A stretch of 64,000 nucleotides of DNA, taken from NCBI GenBank assembly GCA_021783515.1, contig JAJXTV010000008.1:44217-108216 (forward strand), written 5' to 3'. The number at the start of each line of letters is the position of its first letter. The stretch's first letter is position 1. The notes under the pieces are model-generated. The model did no database searches. It was not told the DNA's origin and saw only the letters and a list, made by a program, of their open reading frames with translations. Made by a program: the position numbers and the translations under genes. Positions 10,328 to 24,155 of this stretch are shown here, one piece after another. This stretch comes from Nitrospirota bacterium. GTDB taxonomy: Bacteria > Nitrospirota > Thermodesulfovibrionia > Thermodesulfovibrionales > UBA6898.

Positions 10328-11431
10328 TTAGAGTCTCAGGACATCGCAGGCGTTGGTGAAAACGGATTCGTGCATGCCAAATTGCCTCACGATCCTGAGA
10401 TGGCTGTCGAGCGGATTACCCCGCTCCCTGATATGCGTCATCATCTCATGAGGACTCAACGGGTCCCTAAAGACATTGATATCCACCGCAGGCATCGGAA
10501 AGTCGCTCCCGTACAGAAACCGCCTGGGGCTGATCCTTCCCTCGGCTATCTCCTGCACGATCCGTTCGAGATACCGTATCCGCAACGGCGTGCAGCAGGC
10601 CGAAATATCGGCGAAAAGGTCCCACCTTCTCGCGTCGGCGTCCCTCAGCATCCCGATCAACTCCTCGAAATATCCCGCGTCGGACGGCATGACAGCCCCT
10701 GCCGACGGCGATGCGCAGTTCGCGATAATCACCCTGACCCCGATATCAAGTGCGCGTGTCAACTTCCTGGGATCGTTGTACCTCGCTATCCTGAAGTCCG
10801 AGGGGTGCACCGCAAATTCCGTCCCCGCATGGCAGAACAGCGGCACCCCCTCCCTCGCCAGCCGCACGTAAAAGGGAATGCATCGGTCGTCCTCGGGATT
10901 AATCTGCTGGCCCGCCGGCGCCCATACGAAAAGCGCCGCGCCTTCGGCGATGCACCGTTCCGTTTCGGCGATCATCTGTCCGGGGAGACGATAGGGGTGG
11001 ACCGAAGCCCCGAGAAGCACCCGCCCATTCTGTCGCGCCATCCCGATCACATAGTCGTTCGGGACGACGAGATGCGATTCGGAATCCACAAACTTGCCGT
11101 TTTTGTGCACCCCGTCCATCGCGAGCAGCACCGAGCGGTCCGTTTCTTCCGACGTATCGACTGCATCGATAAGCGCTTCTTTCAGCCTTTCGTCACCGGC
11201 CTCGAAAGTCGGCATATTGAAAGAAATGAGCATAGCCGCAAAGGTGGGTCCGCTCAGGAATTCCTGCGAGGCCCAGCACCCCTTGCCCGAATCCCCCACG
11301 CCGAGCGCGTGCACATGAAGGTCGATCACTTCTCTGCCGGTCAACCGGGAGGGCTGTCCCACCCCCTCAGCCTCAGCCATAAGGTCGTTTTCCGCCATCT
11401 CCTCCAACCGGTCTCCGGAAGAGCTGTTCAT
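10328..11431 (-). CDS. Amidohydrolase family protein (amidohydrolase-2 like)
   Basis: DLHVHALG metal motif, PLFCHAGT, RFLYGSDFPMP. Confidence 0.75.
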   Translation of the reverse strand: MNSSSGDRLEEMAENDLMAEAEGVGQPSRLTGREVIDLHVHALGVGDSGKGCWASQEFLSGPTFAAMLISFNMPTFEAGDERLKEALIDAVDTSEETDRSVLLAMDGVHKNGKFVDSESHLVVPNDYVIGMARQNGRVLLGASVHPYRLPGQMIAETERCIAEGAALFVWAPAGQQINPEDDRCIPFYVRLAREGVPLFCHAGTEFAVHPSDFRIARYNDPRKLTRALDIGVRVIIANCASPSAGAVMPSDAGYFEELIGMLRDADARRWDLFADISACCTPLRIRYLERIVQEIAEGRISPRRFLYGSDFPMPAVDINVFRDPLSPHEMMTHIRERGNPLDSHLRIVRQFGMHESVFTNACDVLRL

Positions 11432-11667
11432 TCGCCGCCACCGGCGGCACATTCAGCCGCGACGGAAACTGCCTGCATCCTGCTCACTACGCCCAATTTC
11501 TTCATGATATTGCCGACATGATAATTTACCGTCCTCTCGCTTATGCGAAGGATCTGCGCAATGTCCCACGATGTCTTGCCCATCTTCAGCCATTTAAGCA
11601 CTTCCTTTTCCCTCGGAGAAAGACAGTCCAGTAACTTCCCCCCACAGCCGCCCGAGCCATATCCCAT
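11428..11667 (-). CDS. LuxR-type HTH protein (short, DNA-binding domain only; ORF open upstream to 11814)
   Basis: LSPREKEVLKWLKMGKTSWDIAQILRISERTVNYHVGNIMKKLGV; start at 11667 preferred because of GGAGGGGAA SD; stop overlaps amidohydrolase start (ATGA). Confidence 0.75.
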   Translation of the reverse strand: MGYGSGGCGGKLLDCLSPREKEVLKWLKMGKTSWDIAQILRISERTVNYHVGNIMKKLGVVSRMQAVSVAAECAAGGGE

Positions 11668-11937
11668 TTCCCCTCCGTACCGGCCTTTGCGCATCCCCCA
11701 CGGCAGATCCTCAGCAAAGACCGGGCCAATAGCGGAACATATGAAAAAGGTATTGATTTTGAAGAGATTTATCCGGCGAATGCCCGGTTTCCCGGCAGGC
11801 AAGACTACAATCATTAGAGAGAGACTATATAATAATCAGAGAGTAACGGCCTTTTCCCCCGTTCACCACCCTCCGAATGCTTGCAAGCCCCCTGCCTCCC
11901 GGCAGGCAGGGGGATATGTCTGATAAACGGCGAGCCG

Positions 11938-13281
11938 CTATTTGATCCCGAATTCCTTTATCTTCGCGAAAAGCGTGGCATAGCTCATCTCGAGCATCTC
12001 GGCGGCCTTCGTCTTATTGCCTTCCGTCCTTGCAAGCGCCTCGACGATCATCTTCTTTTCGAGGTCCTTCACCGCCTCCTTCAGCGAGATGTCGCCGTAC
12101 ATGTAGCGGTCCCTCCCCCTCTGGCCCATCAGCGACTCGACGCATTCCCGCTCGATCACGTCCGTTTCGGTATGGAGCGCCGCCCTCCGCATTACGTTTT
12201 TCAGCTCCCTCAGATTGCCGGGCCATGTATACTTCGCAAGAGACGCGAGGGCGTCGGCAGAGATCTCCCTGATCTGCTTGTTCAGCTCGGAGGAGGCATC
12301 GAAGAGGAATTTGCGGGCAAAAAAGGGGATATCGTCCGCCCTCTCCCTGAGAGGCGGCAGGCAGATGATGAATTCACCGAGGCGGTAATATAAATCTTCC
12401 CTGAACTCCTTTTTCTCTACCGCATCCCTGATGTCTTTGTTCGTGGCCGCGATGATCCTCGTGTCGACGTCCAATTCGCTCGTGCCCCCCAGCGGATATA
12501 TCTTCTTCTTCTCGATAACGCTGAGGAGCTTTGCCTGCACGTGGGGCGACATATTCTCGAGTTCGTCCAGAAAGATCGTGCCGCCCTGGGCCGCCTCAAA
12601 ATAGCCCGGTTTATCCTTCTCCGCGCCGGTGAAGGCGCCTTTTTTGTATCCGAACAGCTCGCTCTCGACAAGCAGGTCAGGGATAAGGCCGATGTCTACG
12701 CTCACGAAAGGCTTGCCCGACCTCCCGCTCAGGCTGTGGACGGCCTCTGCCACCACCGATTTGCCGGTTCCGGTCTCTCCCTGGATGATCACCGAAAACT
12801 GCGTGCCCGCAACCTGCTCGATCTGCCTGATCACCGCTTTCATCGCCTCGCCCCTGCCCAGTTGGTGCTCGAGGGAAGATTTCAGCGCGTTCTGCGCCCT
12901 CTCGATCTCCTTCGATAGCCGCCGCGTCTCCAGCGCCCTCCGGAGCGTGATCACGAGTCTGCTGAAATCGGGAGGCTTCACCATGAAGTCGTAGACTCCG
13001 TTTTTCATCGCCTCGACCGCGGTCGGAATGTCGCCGTGGGCGGTGAGAATGATGATCGGGACATCGGGGGCGATCCTTCTGAACTCGCGCATCGCGTCGA
13101 CGCCGTTCATGCGGGGCATCTGAAGGTCGAGCAGCACCGCGTCGGGCGGTTCCTTTCTGAAGAGCGTGATCGCCTGCAGGCCGTCCTCCGCCTCGACGAC
13201 CGAAAAGCCCTCGTCGCCCAGCACCTCACTGACGATCCCCCTCAGGTCCTTCTCATCGTCAACAAGCAACACTCTGTCCAT
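11938..13281 (-). CDS. Sigma54-dependent response regulator, NtrC family
   Basis: Receiver domain, GETGTGKS, GAFTGA motif, Fis-type HTH. Confidence 0.96.
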   Translation of the reverse strand: MDRVLLVDDEKDLRGIVSEVLGDEGFSVVEAEDGLQAITLFRKEPPDAVLLDLQMPRMNGVDAMREFRRIAPDVPIIILTAHGDIPTAVEAMKNGVYDFMVKPPDFSRLVITLRRALETRRLSKEIERAQNALKSSLEHQLGRGEAMKAVIRQIEQVAGTQFSVIIQGETGTGKSVVAEAVHSLSGRSGKPFVSVDIGLIPDLLVESELFGYKKGAFTGAEKDKPGYFEAAQGGTIFLDELENMSPHVQAKLLSVIEKKKIYPLGGTSELDVDTRIIAATNKDIRDAVEKKEFREDLYYRLGEFIICLPPLRERADDIPFFARKFLFDASSELNKQIREISADALASLAKYTWPGNLRELKNVMRRAALHTETDVIERECVESLMGQRGRDRYMYGDISLKEAVKDLEKKMIVEALARTEGNKTKAAEMLEMSYATLFAKIKEFGIK

Positions 13282-13303: not shown

Positions 13304-14875
13304 CTATTCACTCTTATTTTCCATATCCGGCCCACTTTTTTCGAGCAGAGGGATATAGACCTTGAACATGGTGCCCCTTCCCGGCTCCGAATCGACCCAC
13401 ACCCAACCCCTGTGCTGCTTGACGATGCCGTAGACGATTGCAAGCCCGAGCCCCGTCCCCTTTCCGACGTCCTTCGTCGTAAAGTAAGGCTCGAATATCC
13501 GCTCCCTCGTCTTTTCGTCCATGCCCGGCCCGGTGTCGCTCACGGTAATCATCCCGTACCCCCCGGGGGTCGGCGGATACGAGCTTCGCGTTTCCTCCGG
13601 GGCAACGGACACGGTCCCGACCGTGATTGAGAGCATTCCCCCGTCAGGCATCGCGTCGCGGCCGTTCGTGCAGAGGTTCATCAGGATCTGGTCGATCTGG
13701 ACACTGTCGCTCATCACCATGACCGGTTCGTCCGATAAGCCGATACTCAGCCCCACGGCCTCCCCTGCCATGTTATCGAGCATCGGCTTGAGCCTTCTGA
13801 CGACGACGTTCAGGTCAACAGGCCGGAGTTCGAACTGGTGCGTTCTGCTGAAGGTGAGCAGTTCCCGGATCAGGTTCTGCGCCCTGCTGATCGAATCGTG
13901 CACCTGCGTCGTGTGCCTGCGCAGCTCGTCGCCCGCGCCCAGTTTTCTGTCGATCAGATAGACTGAACCCCGCAGCGTGGCGAGGATATTATTAAAGTCG
14001 TGCGCAACCCCCCTGGCGAGCGTGCCGACCGCCTCCATCTTCTGGGCGTATCTGAGTTTCGTCTCCAGTGCCTCTTTCTCCTCCTCCCGCCTCTTCAGGT
14101 TGTCCGACATGGTATTGAAGTCCATCGCAAGCCTTCCGATCTCGTCCATCGACTCCACCGGCAGCTTATCGACCGTCCCGCCCGCTCCGAGCGTTCGCAC
14201 CGACTCGGCAAGGTCGGTGAGCGGCCGCATGATCCTCTTCACCCCGATATAGATGGCGATACTTCCTGCAAGCAAAAAGAGCAGGGTAGCGAGCGCATTC
14301 CGGAGGAGGATCGCCCTCATTTCCGCCCTGAGTCCTCCCTTGTCCAGAACGACCTCGACATACCCGATGACGTTCTGCACGCCCTTCCCCTGCGTCTCCC
14401 CGAAATAAAGGGCCTCATCCATGTTCCGGTATGTTTCGAACACGACCGGAGAGAGGAACCCGATCGTATTGTCATCTTCGTCGCTCCTCGGCACGGCGCC
14501 CGCCCGCGCCAAAAACTTCTCCCCGCCTTCCGGGATCGGGGAAGCCGGTTTCCCGCCGGAGGCCCGCTTCTTCTCTACCATCAGGACCTGCCTGTCGGCG
14601 TTGTATACCACCACCGCAAGGACGTTTCTCTGTCCCATCACCCCCTGGACCGCGTCTTTCAGCATTTCCCTGTTTTCGGCAAAGACCCAGGTCCTGATGT
14701 TATAGGCGAGGATGCCGGTCAACATCGTTCCTTCTTTATTGAGGTCTTTCCTCGCCACGCCGCTCTGGTAGGAGACGAGGAAGCCTGAAAGGACGGTGGC
14801 CACCACAAGGACCGAGAGAACGAACGTCCTGAAGACCTTGAAGCCGAAGCTCTTTCTAAAGCTCCTAGTCGACAT
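13304..14875 (-). CDS. Sensor histidine kinase (periplasmic sensor, HAMP, HisKA, HATPase)
   Basis: GVAHDFNNILATL H-box, DTGPGMDE, GTGLGLAIVYGIVKQHRG. Confidence 0.95.
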   Translation of the reverse strand: MSTRSFRKSFGFKVFRTFVLSVLVVATVLSGFLVSYQSGVARKDLNKEGTMLTGILAYNIRTWVFAENREMLKDAVQGVMGQRNVLAVVVYNADRQVLMVEKKRASGGKPASPIPEGGEKFLARAGAVPRSDEDDNTIGFLSPVVFETYRNMDEALYFGETQGKGVQNVIGYVEVVLDKGGLRAEMRAILLRNALATLLFLLAGSIAIYIGVKRIMRPLTDLAESVRTLGAGGTVDKLPVESMDEIGRLAMDFNTMSDNLKRREEEKEALETKLRYAQKMEAVGTLARGVAHDFNNILATLRGSVYLIDRKLGAGDELRRHTTQVHDSISRAQNLIRELLTFSRTHQFELRPVDLNVVVRRLKPMLDNMAGEAVGLSIGLSDEPVMVMSDSVQIDQILMNLCTNGRDAMPDGGMLSITVGTVSVAPEETRSSYPPTPGGYGMITVSDTGPGMDEKTRERIFEPYFTTKDVGKGTGLGLAIVYGIVKQHRGWVWVDSEPGRGTMFKVYIPLLEKSGPDMENKSE

Positions 14876-15767
14876 TTTCCGCCCTCTTCAGTACCTCGCC
14901 CCTTATCCTGATGCCGAGCTTGCCGGCGATCTTCCGGTTGATCACGAGGATCGCCTTTCTGACGTCTTCCCTTACCGGCGTGTCGTTATTCCCTGCAAGT
15001 ATCCTCCGGGACATCTCGCCGGCCTGGCTCCCCATCTCCCTCGGCGAGGCGTAAAGGCCCGCCGTCGCTCCGAGCTCGACATATTTTTTCGAGAAGGTGA
15101 ATACCGGCACCCTGTTCTTGAAAGAAAAGAGAAGGAGATATTTCACCGCCTCCGGATTTACGACCGTTGCGTCGGGGAGCATCCAGAAGAGGTCGACCCT
15201 GTCCTTCATGCCGTCGAGGAGGGCAGGGAAGTCTCCCGGCCGCGAGGTCTTCTTTGCGACGAGCTCGATCCCTCTGGCCTGGCAAAAGGACTCGGCCTCC
15301 TGTATCGCCGCCTCGGAATGCTTCGCGTCGTATATTACGCCGACCCTTTTCACAAACGGGAAGACCTCGATCATCGCCGAGAGGCGTTTCTGAGGAGAGA
15401 TGTACATGCTCACTCCGGATGCGGCCTGGCCGGGACCGAAGGAGATGGAACGCGGCACCATCGAATAGATCACGGGGATGCCCGGGATCTCCTTCGCCAG
15501 GTTAAGGGCGTCGAGGCCGACGGTGAAGACCGCCGACGGTCTCATCTCCCTGATCTGGGCAAAGGCTTCCCGGCCGCCGTTTTCCGAGAGCGTGATCTGT
15601 CTCAGATCGCAGCCGCAGGACTGCTCGAATCCCTCAATCGCCTCGTCGTACGGCTGGATGTCCGCGCTTTTGATGGCCACAATCATGTGCGCCTCTGAAA
15701 ACGCGGGAAAGGCGAGAAGGAAAAGCAGCGCAAGTGCTATTACTATGCGGTATGTATCTTTACGCAT
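14865..15767 (-). CDS. ABC-type substrate-binding protein (TrpX/ABC_sub_bind-like)
   Basis: Signal peptide; VGVIYDAKHSEAAIQEAE..., bilobal periplasmic binding pattern. Confidence 0.85.
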   Translation of the reverse strand: MRKDTYRIVIALALLFLLAFPAFSEAHMIVAIKSADIQPYDEAIEGFEQSCGCDLRQITLSENGGREAFAQIREMRPSAVFTVGLDALNLAKEIPGIPVIYSMVPRSISFGPGQAASGVSMYISPQKRLSAMIEVFPFVKRVGVIYDAKHSEAAIQEAESFCQARGIELVAKKTSRPGDFPALLDGMKDRVDLFWMLPDATVVNPEAVKYLLLFSFKNRVPVFTFSKKYVELGATAGLYASPREMGSQAGEMSRRILAGNNDTPVREDVRKAILVINRKIAGKLGIRIRGEVLKRAENVD

Positions 15768-16034: not shown

Positions 16035-17330
16035 TTAAGTCCCTGTCAGACCGTACCTGATGTCCTGCATCACGAACGCCTCGAGCGTAGCGTCGAAGAG
16101 GGCCTTCTTGCAGTCAACTCCCTCCATGGCGCCGTCGCGGACGAGCTTCATATACCTGCAGCCTCCGAAGCAGAGCGGCAGATAGGCGCAGTCGAGGCAT
16201 TTCTCGTTCTTCCAGTTATCAAGGTGATGAGAGGCGCGGCAGTCCTTCATCCCGGACCGGATGTCGCCAATCTGGTATTCTTTCCTCCCGAGAAGCCCGG
16301 GGCATTTGCAGATGCTCCCGTCGTAGTTCACCATGATATTGTCCCTGTGCTCCATCATACAGACGCCCGGACCGGTCCGCTCAAGCCTGCAGCCCCTCCT
16401 GAGTATCTCTTCTCTCAGATATACGCTCGCACCAAAAAGCCAGGGCTCATCCGCGGACATCAGCCCCTCATGAAAATCAGGCAATGCGTAATCCGCACTT
16501 TCGGCGACGACGGGAAAGAACCCCCGCATCACGACCTTCGACGGCAGAAGCCCCTCTCCGGTCAGATAATCGAGAAGCCGGGGGAACCGCCCATAGTTCT
16601 CCTTCGTGAAATTGCCTCCGGTCTGGATTTCGATCATGCCGCAGACGTCCTTGATATTCCCTATGATCCGTCTGAAGCTGCCCCTGCCTGATTTGTACGG
16701 TCTGGAGGAGTCATGGCTCTCCTCGGGCCCGTCTATCGTGACATAGGCCTCTTTCAGACCGAGCTTCTTCATCGCCTCCACGGTTTCTTTCGTCAGAAGC
16801 GTCCCGTTGGTAATGAGATAGAAGCTGAAGGGGATTCCGGCAGAGCGCGCGATCCGCTTCAGTCGCAACGCTACGAAGAGGATGAGATCCCTGCTCATGA
16901 GCGGCTCGCCTCCGTAGAAGGTGATCTGGAGCTCTTTGATCTTCGGCCGGGAGGATATCCTCTTCTTCACGAACTCTACGAAGTCGGCCGCCGCCGCCTT
17001 CGACATATAATGCCTTCCCTTCCTCGTGCCTTCGAAGCAGTACCTGCAGGCGAGGTTGCAGTCGAGGCCCATCACGAGCTTAACGCTCAGTGTCCTGTTC
17101 AGGCGGTTCAGGCCTTCGAGCCATCCGAGCATCTCTTTTCTCTCTTTTTGAGGATCGACGAGAAAGCCCCCTTTCCTGAAAAGTTCCCTGTCGCCCGCAA
17201 GGCGCGGGACGCCCTTTTTCAGGCTTGACAGTGGGATCTTGAGAATGGAGGCGTTCCTGGTGGAAAAGAGCACGAGGCCCTTCGGGTCTTCAGGATCGGG
17301 AAATGCCTTATAGTATTTCGAAAGCTGCAT
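16035..17330 (-). CDS. Radical SAM/SPASM peptide-maturase-like protein (geopeptide-maturase-like)
   Basis: CNLACRYCFE; SPASM pattern C-X2-C-X5-C-X3-C (CLDCAYLPLCFGGC) plus VDC. Track start 17339 is TTG; ATG at 17330 preferred. Confidence 0.88.
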   Translation of the reverse strand: MQLSKYYKAFPDPEDPKGLVLFSTRNASILKIPLSSLKKGVPRLAGDRELFRKGGFLVDPQKERKEMLGWLEGLNRLNRTLSVKLVMGLDCNLACRYCFEGTRKGRHYMSKAAAADFVEFVKKRISSRPKIKELQITFYGGEPLMSRDLILFVALRLKRIARSAGIPFSFYLITNGTLLTKETVEAMKKLGLKEAYVTIDGPEESHDSSRPYKSGRGSFRRIIGNIKDVCGMIEIQTGGNFTKENYGRFPRLLDYLTGEGLLPSKVVMRGFFPVVAESADYALPDFHEGLMSADEPWLFGASVYLREEILRRGCRLERTGPGVCMMEHRDNIMVNYDGSICKCPGLLGRKEYQIGDIRSGMKDCRASHHLDNWKNEKCLDCAYLPLCFGGCRYMKLVRDGAMEGVDCKKALFDATLEAFVMQDIRYGLTGT

Positions 17331-17337
17331 CTTCAAC

Positions 17338-17364
17338 AAAAAAAGGGAGGGCAGACGCCCTCCC
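17338..17364 (-). terminator. Hairpin plus U-tract between Lys-rich peptide gene and radical SAM gene
   Basis: Minus strand GGGAGGGC-GTCT-GCCCTCCC followed by T7. Confidence 0.8.
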
Positions 17365-17382
17365 CATTCTTACGGCCGGAAA

Positions 17383-17649
17383 CTACCTTACAGTCATAAC
17401 CACGCCCCTGCAGCACGGTGCCGCTGTCGCCTTTCTGGTCGTCTTCTTCGCGACTTTCTTCGCGGTGGTTTTCTTTGCAGTCGTTTTCTTTGCAGTCGTT
17501 TTCTTTGCAGCGGTCTTCTTGGCCGCGGTCTTTTTCTTCGCCGCAGGCTTCTTGGCCGCAGGCTTCTTCTTCGCCGCAGGCTTCTTGGCCGCAGGCTTCT
17601 TCTTCGCCGCAGGCTTCTTCGCGGCCGCCTTCCTGATCGTCTTCTTCAT
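17383..17649 (-). CDS. Histone-H1-like Lys/Ala/Pro-repeat protein with C-terminal APCCRGVVMTVR tail
   Basis: Very strong SD AAAGGAGGAGG two bases before ATG; MKKTIRKAAAKKPAAKKKPAAKK...TTRKATAAPCCRGVVMTVR; no plus-strand competitor with RBS. Confidence 0.85.
   Translation of the reverse strand: MKKTIRKAAAKKPAAKKKPAAKKPAAKKKPAAKKPAAKKKTAAKKTAAKKTTAKKTTAKKTTAKKVAKKTTRKATAAPCCRGVVMTVR
17455..17630. repeat. Tandem repeats encoding PAAKK/TAAKK units
   Basis: Repeats of CTTCTTGGCCGCAGGCTTCTTCTTCGCCGCAGG and TTTCTTTGCAGTCGT units. Confidence 0.85.
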
Positions 17650-17702: not shown

Positions 17703-19589
17703 CTAGAACTTGTACCGGACTCCCGCCTCGATCCACCGGTTCAGTCCAGGCGCCACACCATCGCTATATGACGAACCGTTGAGAATGTTATGACCGGTGA
17801 AGAAGGCCTCCAGCGAGGTGTCGTTCTTCTTCAGGATCTCCTTTATCACGTTGAAATCCATCACGAAGCCGTTATACGTCGCCGCCCAGAACGAAGGGAG
17901 GTCCCACCAGAGATAATGGCCCTTCATCACCGCCCTCAAGCCCTTGCCCTCGTCATAGGAAAGAGACGTAGTGATGCCGTATCTTCTCGTCTCGTCGAAC
18001 TCCCTCTCATCAGAGAAGTTGTCCAGCCTCACGCTCTCATAATGGGTGCCGGCCTTAAGCGTAAGGCCCTTCCATTTCTTCGTGATGATCTCGAGCTCTC
18101 CGCCTATCGTCTTTTCCTTGCCGGCGTTTTCTACTGTCAGGAGGTCCCCCTCGAGGCTCTTATCGACTATGATATCGTTGATATCGTGCAGAAACAAGGT
18201 GAGCTTCGCGCTCACGACGTTTGCGACATTCGCCTCAGCCCCCACTTGATAGGACCATATCTTCTCGGTGTTCAGGCCGGGGTTCCCGACAAAGCCGAAG
18301 CCAGGGTGATCAAAAAACGATGGGATCGCCGCATCATGGAAGCCCCTGCTCACGAGCGCCCTGAGAAGGAAATCTTTCGAAACGAGATAGGTAACTCCAA
18401 GACTGGGGCTGAAGATATCGCCTCCGAGGTTGGCATGGTCGAACCTCAGACCCGGGGTGATGGTCAGAGCTCCGAGCGATATCGTGTCGTTTGCGAAGAA
18501 GGCATATTTGTTCTGGTCTACAGACCCGTCAGGATAGAAATCAGCCTTTGCCGTTCCCGTCATCACATCCGTTCCCGCTACTATACTATGCGCCCCCGTC
18601 CTCCACGTGAGGCTGCCGCTGAAGCCGTACTTGTCGAATTTCGTGCCGGAATCGAAAATCGGCTCGTTCGTGCTGACCGTCTTCTCATACATCCCCTCAT
18701 TATTGTTAAAAATCCATCCGGAGACATTAAGGTCAAGGTCCTTGCCGAACGATGTCTGAAGGGATGCCCTTCCGTAGATCTGTTCTAACTTATACGCATC
18801 GAACGCGTCATAGTCTATGAACAGCCAGTCCCACTGGACGCTGTCGTCCTTGTGGTAGAGAAACGAGAGATCGATCTTCGTCTTTTCTCCCGCATCGACC
18901 GTGAACTTCGAAAAGAAATTGTTATGATGGAAATAATGATCGCTTCTCAGTCCGTCGGAGTTCATCGCACCGCCATAGAGATATGCGCCTATTGGCCCTT
19001 TCCTTCCGATAAGCTCGGCCCTGGCGTCGCTCGTATTTCTCTCACCGTACGATGCATAGGCGGTCCCGTGCATGTGATCTCCCGGGCCCGCCGATTTCGT
19101 GATGATGTTTATCACGCCTCCGAAAGAGGACCCCCACGTGGACGACGCAGGCCCCTTTATGATCTCGATCCTCTCTATCATTTGGACAGGCAGGATGCCG
19201 CTGGCGACTGCGTTGGATTCATTCTGAAGCGGCACGCCGTCGAGGAGGACCGCGACCCTCGCATATTCGGAGCCGTGTATGCCGATACCTCCCTGTGCGC
19301 CAGGCCCGACATTGTCCGCGACCTCGACGCCTGTCACGAAATAGAGCGCGTCGGCGACGGTATGGGCGTTCATCAGTTCGATGTCCCTTGCGGTAACGAC
19401 CTCGACGTTCTCGGCGACGCGCGAAATCGACTTGAGGCTCCTCGTCGCCGAGACGACCCGAAGCTCATCTTCCTTGAAATACATGAGGAGAAAGTTGCGT
19501 TCTTCTTCGGACATTGCAAAGGCGGCTGACGAAAGGTGAGTGAGAATGAGGACGACCAACAGAACCAGCGCGGGCCTACTGAAAGACAT
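17703..19589 (-). CDS. TonB-dependent outer-membrane receptor
   Basis: Plug domain (VAVLLDGVPLQ, IERIEIIKGPASSTWGSSFGGVINIITK), C-terminal barrel ending ...RYKF. Confidence 0.93.
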   Translation of the reverse strand: MSFSRPALVLLVVLILTHLSSAAFAMSEEERNFLLMYFKEDELRVVSATRSLKSISRVAENVEVVTARDIELMNAHTVADALYFVTGVEVADNVGPGAQGGIGIHGSEYARVAVLLDGVPLQNESNAVASGILPVQMIERIEIIKGPASSTWGSSFGGVINIITKSAGPGDHMHGTAYASYGERNTSDARAELIGRKGPIGAYLYGGAMNSDGLRSDHYFHHNNFFSKFTVDAGEKTKIDLSFLYHKDDSVQWDWLFIDYDAFDAYKLEQIYGRASLQTSFGKDLDLNVSGWIFNNNEGMYEKTVSTNEPIFDSGTKFDKYGFSGSLTWRTGAHSIVAGTDVMTGTAKADFYPDGSVDQNKYAFFANDTISLGALTITPGLRFDHANLGGDIFSPSLGVTYLVSKDFLLRALVSRGFHDAAIPSFFDHPGFGFVGNPGLNTEKIWSYQVGAEANVANVVSAKLTLFLHDINDIIVDKSLEGDLLTVENAGKEKTIGGELEIITKKWKGLTLKAGTHYESVRLDNFSDEREFDETRRYGITTSLSYDEGKGLRAVMKGHYLWWDLPSFWAATYNGFVMDFNVIKEILKKNDTSLEAFFTGHNILNGSSYSDGVAPGLNRWIEAGVRYKF

Positions 19590-19742
19590 ATCGTCGAATC
19601 CTCCCGAAAGTTAGTGCGAGAATCTCTATCTGAATTTTGTTCTGTCTTTTCAATGGTCGCATTTTCAATTTTACAAAGTATATTCTAATCTAATGTCGCA
19701 TGTCCAGAAAAAAAAGATAAATAGGCGGCGACCTGTACGGCG

Positions 19743-19799: not shown

Positions 19800-20212
19800 T
19801 TATTTGACTCTCTTAATCTCCACGACCTGCGACCTCATGACGGCGCGTTCGAGCGCGGCCTCGGCCCTGGCGAAATCAACGTTCTCGGCGTGCTTCAGCC
19901 TCTCTTCCGCCCTCTTCTTCGCAGCCATCGCCCTGTCCATGTCGATGTCTTCCGAGCGCTCGGCGCTGTCGGCGAGGATCATCACCTTCTCGGAGCCGAC
20001 CTCGGCATAGCCCCAGTTTACGAAGAAATACCTGGCCTCGCTCCCCTTCTTGCAGGTGAGCATGCCGATCTTGAGGGTCGTCACGAACGGCACGTGGCCG
20101 GGCAGTACGCCGAACTCGCCTTCGCTTCCCGTGGCGGCGACCTCGTCGACCTCCTCGCTGAACACAAGGCCCTGCGGGGTCACTATCTCAAGAAGTATCT
20201 TTCCCTCAGCCA

Positions 20213-20213
<1 letters not shown>
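19800..20213 (-). CDS. atpC: F-ATPase epsilon subunit
   Basis: [25 protein letters not shown]...[14 protein letters not shown] overlap with atpD. Confidence 0.95.
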
Positions 20214-21646
<1,433 letters not shown>

Positions 21647-21688
21647 TCATGTGTATATTCATATGGTGAGCGGCAGACCGCCTCCATA

Positions 21689-22558
21689 TTATCCTTTCAA
21701 TGCCTCGACGCCGCCGACGATGTCCATGAGCTCTTTCGTGATCGACGCCTGTCTGGCCTTGTTGTACTGAAGTGTCAGACTGCCGATCATGTCGTTGGCC
21801 GCCCTCGTCGCGTTCTCCATCGCGGCCATTCTCGCCGCCTCTTCGGATGCCTGCGACTCAAGAAGCGCACGGAAGATCTGGATCTCGACGTTCTTCGGAA
21901 CGAGCCTGCTGAAGATCTCCTGCTTGGAGGGCTCATAGATGAAATTGTAGATCGGCAGCGTCTCCTCCGCGGCCTCTATCGGCGCAAGGGGCAGGAGCCT
22001 CGTGATCACCACCTGCTGGGCGATGGCCGACTTGAACTCGTTGAAGATCAGCACGACCTCGTCGGTCGTCTCGCTGGTGTAGTTCTCGATGATCTCCGAG
22101 GCGATCTCCTGGGCGTTGGCGTAGGAGATCTTGCCCGAAATCCCGGTCCAGGCCTTCCGCATCTCGACGTTGCGTCTTTTGTAGTAGTCGCGGGCCTTTC
22201 TTCCGACGACGTCGATCGTCACCTCATACCCTTCGCGCTTCAGCTCGTCGATGTGGCGTACCGCGGCCTTCATGATATTGGTGTTAAAGGCGCCGCAGAG
22301 CCCCCTGTCGCTCGTCATCACGAGCACCTCGATATTCCTCCGGGGCCTCACCGTCAGAAGCGGATGGATCTCTCCCTCGGCGCCGCTTGCGAGACTCGAC
22401 AGAATGCCGTTCATCCGTTCGGCGTAGGGCCTCATCTCGAGCATCCGCTGCTGCGCCTTCCTGAACTTCGCGGCCGACACCATCTTCATCGCCTTGGTGA
22501 TCTTGCTGGTGCTCTCTACCGCTTTTATTCTTCTTTTGATGTCTCTCAGTGTCGCCAT
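21689..22558 (-). CDS. atpG: F-ATPase gamma subunit
   Basis: MATLRDIKRRIKAVESTSKITKAMKMVSAAK; TSDRGLCGAFN. Confidence 0.97.
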   Translation of the reverse strand: MATLRDIKRRIKAVESTSKITKAMKMVSAAKFRKAQQRMLEMRPYAERMNGILSSLASGAEGEIHPLLTVRPRRNIEVLVMTSDRGLCGAFNTNIMKAAVRHIDELKREGYEVTIDVVGRKARDYYKRRNVEMRKAWTGISGKISYANAQEIASEIIENYTSETTDEVVLIFNEFKSAIAQQVVITRLLPLAPIEAAEETLPIYNFIYEPSKQEIFSRLVPKNVEIQIFRALLESQASEEAARMAAMENATRAANDMIGSLTLQYNKARQASITKELMDIVGGVEALKG

Positions 22559-22646
22559 ATTTCTCCTCTATCGTAAAGGGTGGTGCGTAACGGGTGATGA
22601 ATGGGCCTTCACGGCCTTACCCCTCACTCCTCACTCTTCACTGTCT

Positions 22647-24155
<1,509 letters not shown>

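Follow-up and report, generated by a model that had tools for sequence, protein, structure and literature searches.

A complete geopeptide locus of Thermodesulfovibrionia-type Nitrospirota whose precursor carries a probably added histone H1-like module

The stretch of DNA analyzed here (the window; 64,000 nucleotides of contig JAJXTV010000008.1 from the Nitrospirota assembly GCA_021783515.1) holds a complete geopeptide locus of Thermodesulfovibrionia-type Nitrospirota, with a precursor to which an H1-like module has probably been added. On the minus strand, a TonB receptor gene is followed by the precursor, a hairpin and T-run of attenuator type, the maturase, a binding protein, a sensor kinase and a sigma-54 regulator (Table 1), with the open reading frames of the binding protein and the kinase overlapping by 11 bp as coupled genes. 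A reading made from the sequence alone (the sequence-only reading) had described a two-gene system; the pair of precursor and maturase stands, but the set numbers at least six genes, as the surveyed neighbors are conserved. The promoter candidate upstream of the receptor is weak, since the two sigma-70-like candidates observed there compare with 1.9 expected and are not above chance, and sigma-54 promoters proved no more frequent upstream of the receptor than in coding controls, which leaves the NtrC-type regulator a candidate controller of the operon. The gene for this regulator is immediately followed by a small open reading frame for a LuxR/GerE-type regulator that lacks a receiver domain (window 11428-11814, minus strand). 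ATP synthase genes (window 19800-24155) are located just upstream of the geopeptide locus, a neighborhood kept in the related loci L039, L040, L041, and L056.

Table 1. Features of the geopeptide locus, in window coordinates.
Feature	Position	Strand	Basis
Sigma-70-like promoter candidate, weak, upstream of receptor	19677..19706	(-)	10/12 matches
TonB-dependent receptor, first gene of the operon	17703..19589	(-)	PF07715/PF00593
Precursor, geopeptide-type, 88 aa	17383..17649	(-)	ORF, survey of relatives, codon comparison
Attenuator/terminator hairpin and T-run between precursor and maturase	17344..17365	(-)	Similar hairpins in gaps of relatives
Radical SAM/SPASM geopeptide maturase, 431 aa	16035..17330	(-)	TIGR04280 score
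Periplasmic substrate-binding protein, without ABC permease/ATPase	14865..15767	(-)	PF04392
Membrane sensor histidine kinase	13304..14875	(-)	HAMP, HisKA, HATPase_c
NtrC-type sigma-54 response regulator	11938..13281	(-)	PF00072, PF00158, PF02954

The open reading frame of the maturase extends to a TTG (16035-17339, minus strand), three codons upstream of the methionine at 17330 (MQLS) from which homologs align. With the start at 17330 the previously described 52-nt spacing between precursor and enzyme holds; a TTG start would leave 43 nt. The CX3CX2C motif corresponds to C94-x3-C98-x2-C101, and the SPASM C-terminus, likewise recognized beforehand, proved to carry the full seven-cysteine set (C327-x13-G-x4-C346, C381-x2-C384-x5-C390-x3-C394, and C410); both are invariant in 18 aligned homologs. 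A likeness to geopeptide maturases, suggested by the sequence-only reading, was borne out by profile search, in which the enzyme scored 509.7 bits against TIGR04280, 'geopeptide radical SAM maturase' (cut-off 400), over model positions 1-427 of 428, while the runner-up NCBIfam family reached 153.6 bits against its cut-off of 525. By profile score the enzyme is a member of TIGR04280, a model of the type 'hypoth_equivalog'. PapB and CefB also rank at the top among its NCBIfam relatives, with YhhB and DynA among the lower-scoring ones. In an AF2 model built from 13 homologs (pLDDT 80, pTM 0.82), the N-terminal domain (approximately residues 4-82) is predicted to precede the barrel and to consist of three strands followed by three helices, as in an RRE; the best solved match of the model is CteB (5why, 5wgg), which is also the best by sequence.

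The 88-residue, Lys-rich reading frame with KKPAAKK/TTAKK repeats and a Cys-Cys tail is present as first described, and a strong Shine-Dalgarno sequence, AGGAGGAGGAT, lies just ahead of its ATG. The H1-like repeats (approximately residues 7-66), encoded by tandem DNA units, are followed by a short juxta-Cys stretch, VAKKTTRKATAAP, and the core CCRGVVMTVR, the protein ending in ...TAAPCCRGVVMTVR. The closest ortholog is that of the L039 locus (enzyme 78% identical), which differs in repeat number and is identical at the start of the tail, CCRG. The 52 alignable codons contain 46 base differences, distributed 11, 6, and 29 over the three codon positions, and give a dN/dS of 0.06 (NG86) or 0.38 (YN00); this third-position bias and dN/dS indicate selection on the repeat gene at the level of the protein. 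The HC2 profile (PF07382) matched the protein at 31.8 bits (gathering cut-off 40) and reached 40.8 bits in a six-frame genome search, low-complexity matches in both cases, and the H1-like models NF038052 and NF038053 likewise remained below their curated cut-offs at the protein level. There was no match to the 22-residue geopeptide model TIGR04229 (cut-off 30 bits). As judged from these comparisons, the precursor is geopeptide-like by position and core, outside TIGR04229 by score and H1-like by composition.

Eighty loci from named genomes (Nitrospirota, Geobacterales, Desulfobacterales, and others) were surveyed together with loci taken from genomes related to that of the window. A small open reading frame with a plausible ribosome site, ending in CC and a short tail, was found upstream of 84 of the 88 maturases, and the CC-tailed frame beside the window maturase is therefore not a chance neighbor. 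Homologs lacking such a neighbor, or a tail not conserved among them, had been named as observations that would count against the proposal, and this is not the pattern encountered. No CC frame was found near the maturases of L047, L028, and L029, and the fourth exception, L082, begins at a contig end. The tail extends 7-14 residues past CC, mostly 8-9, and a core pattern common to H1-like and classic precursors, CC-x-G-(A/G)-x-x-(P)-x-(R), is matched by CCRGVVMTVR. Classic geopeptide precursors form the majority; they are about 30-40 residues long with IxVLDxG...CC, and those that match TIGR04229 do so at only 11-28 bits (cut-off 30), the others giving no match. An H1-like Lys-rich N-terminal part is present in ten precursors (window, L039, L040, L041, L042, L043, L045, L022, L053, and L055), all from Nitrospirota records or from genomes of the window's family. 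A further full locus, L140, lies in the window's own genome, and its precursor is of the classic type (MVKEEIEVLDGGIDLTVVGPMGACCGAALIPIK).

Two further arrangements were seen in the survey. Two CC-tailed precursors lie near one maturase in L067 and L068. The maturase is fused to a C-terminal domain of about 290 residues, common to all three cases, in L076 (3628-5793), L086 (2635-4806), and L106 (10001-12181, plus strand); searches with this domain from L086 and L106 gave no NCBIfam and no Pfam match.

The locus combines an encoded precursor with a variable leader and a conserved core, and an adjacent modifying enzyme with an RRE-like domain, by which a RiPP is recognized. With a TIGR04280 maturase and a CC-tailed frame upstream in 84 of 88 cases, the RiPP-type interpretation is well supported, and the window probably encodes an H1-like variant of the geopeptide system in which the CC tail is the target of the enzyme. 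The 88-residue protein might instead be an ordinary H1-like nucleoid protein, the neighboring enzyme modifying something else. The HC2/H1-like profile matches would fit this, as would other H1-like tails in the genome, on a SWIB-type protein (L135, 1450-1857, minus strand) and in a 31-residue KKAAPKK frame (L136, 1498-1593, plus strand); however, neither of these has a CC tail or a maturase, a CC tail of near-fixed length precedes 84 of 88 maturases mostly without any H1-like part, and a classic precursor occupies the syntenic slot in L056. An ordinary nucleoid protein is thus very improbable.

On a quick tree of the enzymes, a single clade for the ten H1-type systems was rejected (p-AU 0.0003, at a cost of 124 log units), and three changes are needed to account for the H1-like label, indicating that the module arose more than once. 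ATP synthase genes (atpD/atpG) precede the loci of the window, L039, L040, and L041; the same holds for L056, which matches them in gene order and type of regulator and has a classic precursor (MKKRIKVLDKGMSKREIAESTVCC...). Because this syntenic slot holds a classic precursor, the switch to the H1-like form most likely took place in situ. A profile without gaps, built from basic classic leaders and scored against shuffles, detected the classic register immediately ahead of CC in L043 and L022 (p <= 0.0004) and more weakly in L039, L040, L041, and L042 (p 0.01-0.04); with this profile it was not found before CC in the window (p 0.50), L045, L053, or L055, and a slid register scores equally high in several H1-like precursors. 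In L040 the sequence behind the repeats is RSIGVSKAEVAGAACC, and in L053 and L055 the repeats lie between CC and a start, KRIAVKKKAM, that resembles the classic N-terminus. Because a classic-like leader motif persists between repeats and CC in several relatives, the H1-like part looks like an N-terminal module added in front of a decaying leader, and a leader role for the repeats, which the sequence-only reading had considered, is improbable.

The relationship between leader and enzyme was considered through charge. Across 73 classic systems, the net charge of the leader runs opposite to that of the N-terminal domain of the enzyme (Spearman -0.61, p 8e-9), in a test that was chosen after the data were seen. 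Phylogenetic contrasts retain the relationship (r -0.33, p 0.004) and give none between leader charge and the rest of the enzyme (r -0.04, p 0.75); an independent-pairs sign test was not significant, with too few pairs. That the opposition of charge is confined to this RRE-like domain supports the view that the leader docks there. H1-like leaders carry +9 to +33, yet the N-terminal domain has a charge of -3 to +7 in nine of the ten enzymes, the exception being L041 (leader +9, domain -13). H1-type enzymes thus mostly lack the expected acidic RRE domain, making the polycation an unlikely docking element in most of them.

These observations bear on whether the Lys-rich stretch is merely leader, grown by repeat slippage from a basic Nitrospirota leader (KRIVVLKKGVEKKE) and functionless in itself. 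The nearest tree relatives of the H1-type enzymes do have basic classic leaders, the repeats are tandem in the DNA with a number varying between the window and L039, and the opening of L053 and L055 resembles a classic N-terminus. Slippage is nevertheless rather unlikely to be the whole explanation, given the third-position bias and purifying selection in the repeat gene, the more than one origin of the H1-like part, and RRE domains without the opposite charge seen alongside basic classic leaders. Instead of acting as the leader for the RRE-like domain, the H1-like part, a polycationic N-terminal extension, may bind a polyanion (nucleic acid, polyphosphate or the envelope) and so alter the location or handling of the precursor, a role that we propose tentatively, as possible without being probable.

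Clustering of neighbors in 83 loci placed the TonB receptor family in 76, the binding protein in 55 and the kinase/regulator genes in 55, counts that are lower bounds as many contigs are cut. The partner genes occur in two arrangements, following the enzyme or running divergently ahead of the receptor, and in some loci the genes for the binding protein and kinase are absent or located elsewhere. Among 27 genomes of the family, a close relative of the receptor (E <= 1e-60) is present in 17 of 17 with the maturase versus 0 of 10 without (Fisher p 1e-7); the binding protein coincides with the maturase less strictly. No peptidase or full exporter is conserved among the neighbors in the 83 loci. 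A half-size MFS protein of 185-201 residues, matching only the N-terminal half of PF07690 and possibly half of an exporter, directly follows the maturase in about 12 loci, among them L140 (7520-8077, minus strand) and L070 (11305-11871, plus strand). A conserved CxC in the binding protein was considered as a partner for the peptide's CC and rejected, each Cys being present in only 30 of 58 and 25 of 58.

The GC-rich, terminator-like hairpin and T-run between precursor and enzyme have similar counterparts in 58 of 79 homologous intergenic gaps versus 0.3 expected from mononucleotide shuffles. Such an element would act as an attenuator, so that precursor is made in excess over enzyme. Docking of the precursor would fall to the RRE-like domain at the N-terminus of the maturase, and SAM radical chemistry by the SPASM enzyme may cross-link one or both cysteines of the pair to residues close by in the 8-residue tail. 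We infer a thioether link, as in CteB, from homology to that enzyme. SPASM enzymes include epimerases and cyclophane formers, and the lower-scoring relatives of the maturase include YhhB and DynA; the CC tail might be modified otherwise, by epimerization or a C-C cross-link, or be left unmodified with its thiols binding metal. This is unlikely in view of the invariant Cys pair in the substrates, the thioether-forming CteB as the nearest solved structure and fold, and top NCBIfam relatives, PapB and CefB, that are named for Cys-containing peptides.

Once matured, the tail itself, or else a metal or some other ligand that it binds, would be taken up through the TonB receptor, and the binding protein would report ligand or peptide to the kinase and regulator. 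For this role in uptake and sensing the prospects are evenly balanced; a metal-binding or signaling peptide that is recovered by the receptor and sensed by the kinase is the reading that would use all of the parts. Metallophore or signal systems pair a TonB receptor with two-component sensing, and the window locus similarly has a receptor, a periplasmic binding protein, and a sensor kinase beside the maker of a small molecule, but it has no ABC importer and no protease was found in it, nor is an exporter or peptidase conserved among the surveyed loci. A more elaborate arrangement is distinctly unlikely: the maturase may act on the core of a polyanion- or DNA-bound protein, yielding a modified Cys-Cys on a chromatin-like protein, or a polyanion may scaffold the basic enzyme and its basic substrate, with the product sensed by the TonB receptor and two-component system.

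Several known systems resemble parts of the locus. The maturase passes TIGR04280, and the position of the CC core, the length, and the gene order are shared with geopeptide systems, as is the classic-type precursor at the genome's second locus; the window precursor differs in its H1-like extension and in having no TIGR04229 match. CteB/SCIFF-type maturases (TIGR03974) share the combination of radical SAM, SPASM, and N-terminal RRE-like domains, but the window enzyme scores 92 bits against a cut-off of 425, and its substrate has one CC pair whereas SCIFF has six Cys and no H1-like part. Bacterial H1-like proteins (PF07382, NF038052, NF038053) share the Lys/Ala/Thr/Pro repeat composition; unlike them, the precursor has a CC core at its end and a maturase gene as its partner. 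We know of no characterized RiPP with an H1-like precursor architecture. In the literature searched, no papers were found on geopeptides, TIGR04280/TIGR04229, or H1-like proteins with radical SAM enzymes, and Geobacter is mentioned in PMC4289311 for lasso peptides only. Geopeptides are thus a named family with two curated model names that is apparently uncharacterized, and the H1-like precursor is a new and unusual variant within it. The survey provides this family with a hypothesis of function, in which uptake and sensing would proceed through dedicated partners, as well as a definition of the core, a putative attenuator and a charge rule linking leader and RRE, while the repeated origin of the H1-like variant raises the question of what role a polycationic tail plays for a modified peptide.
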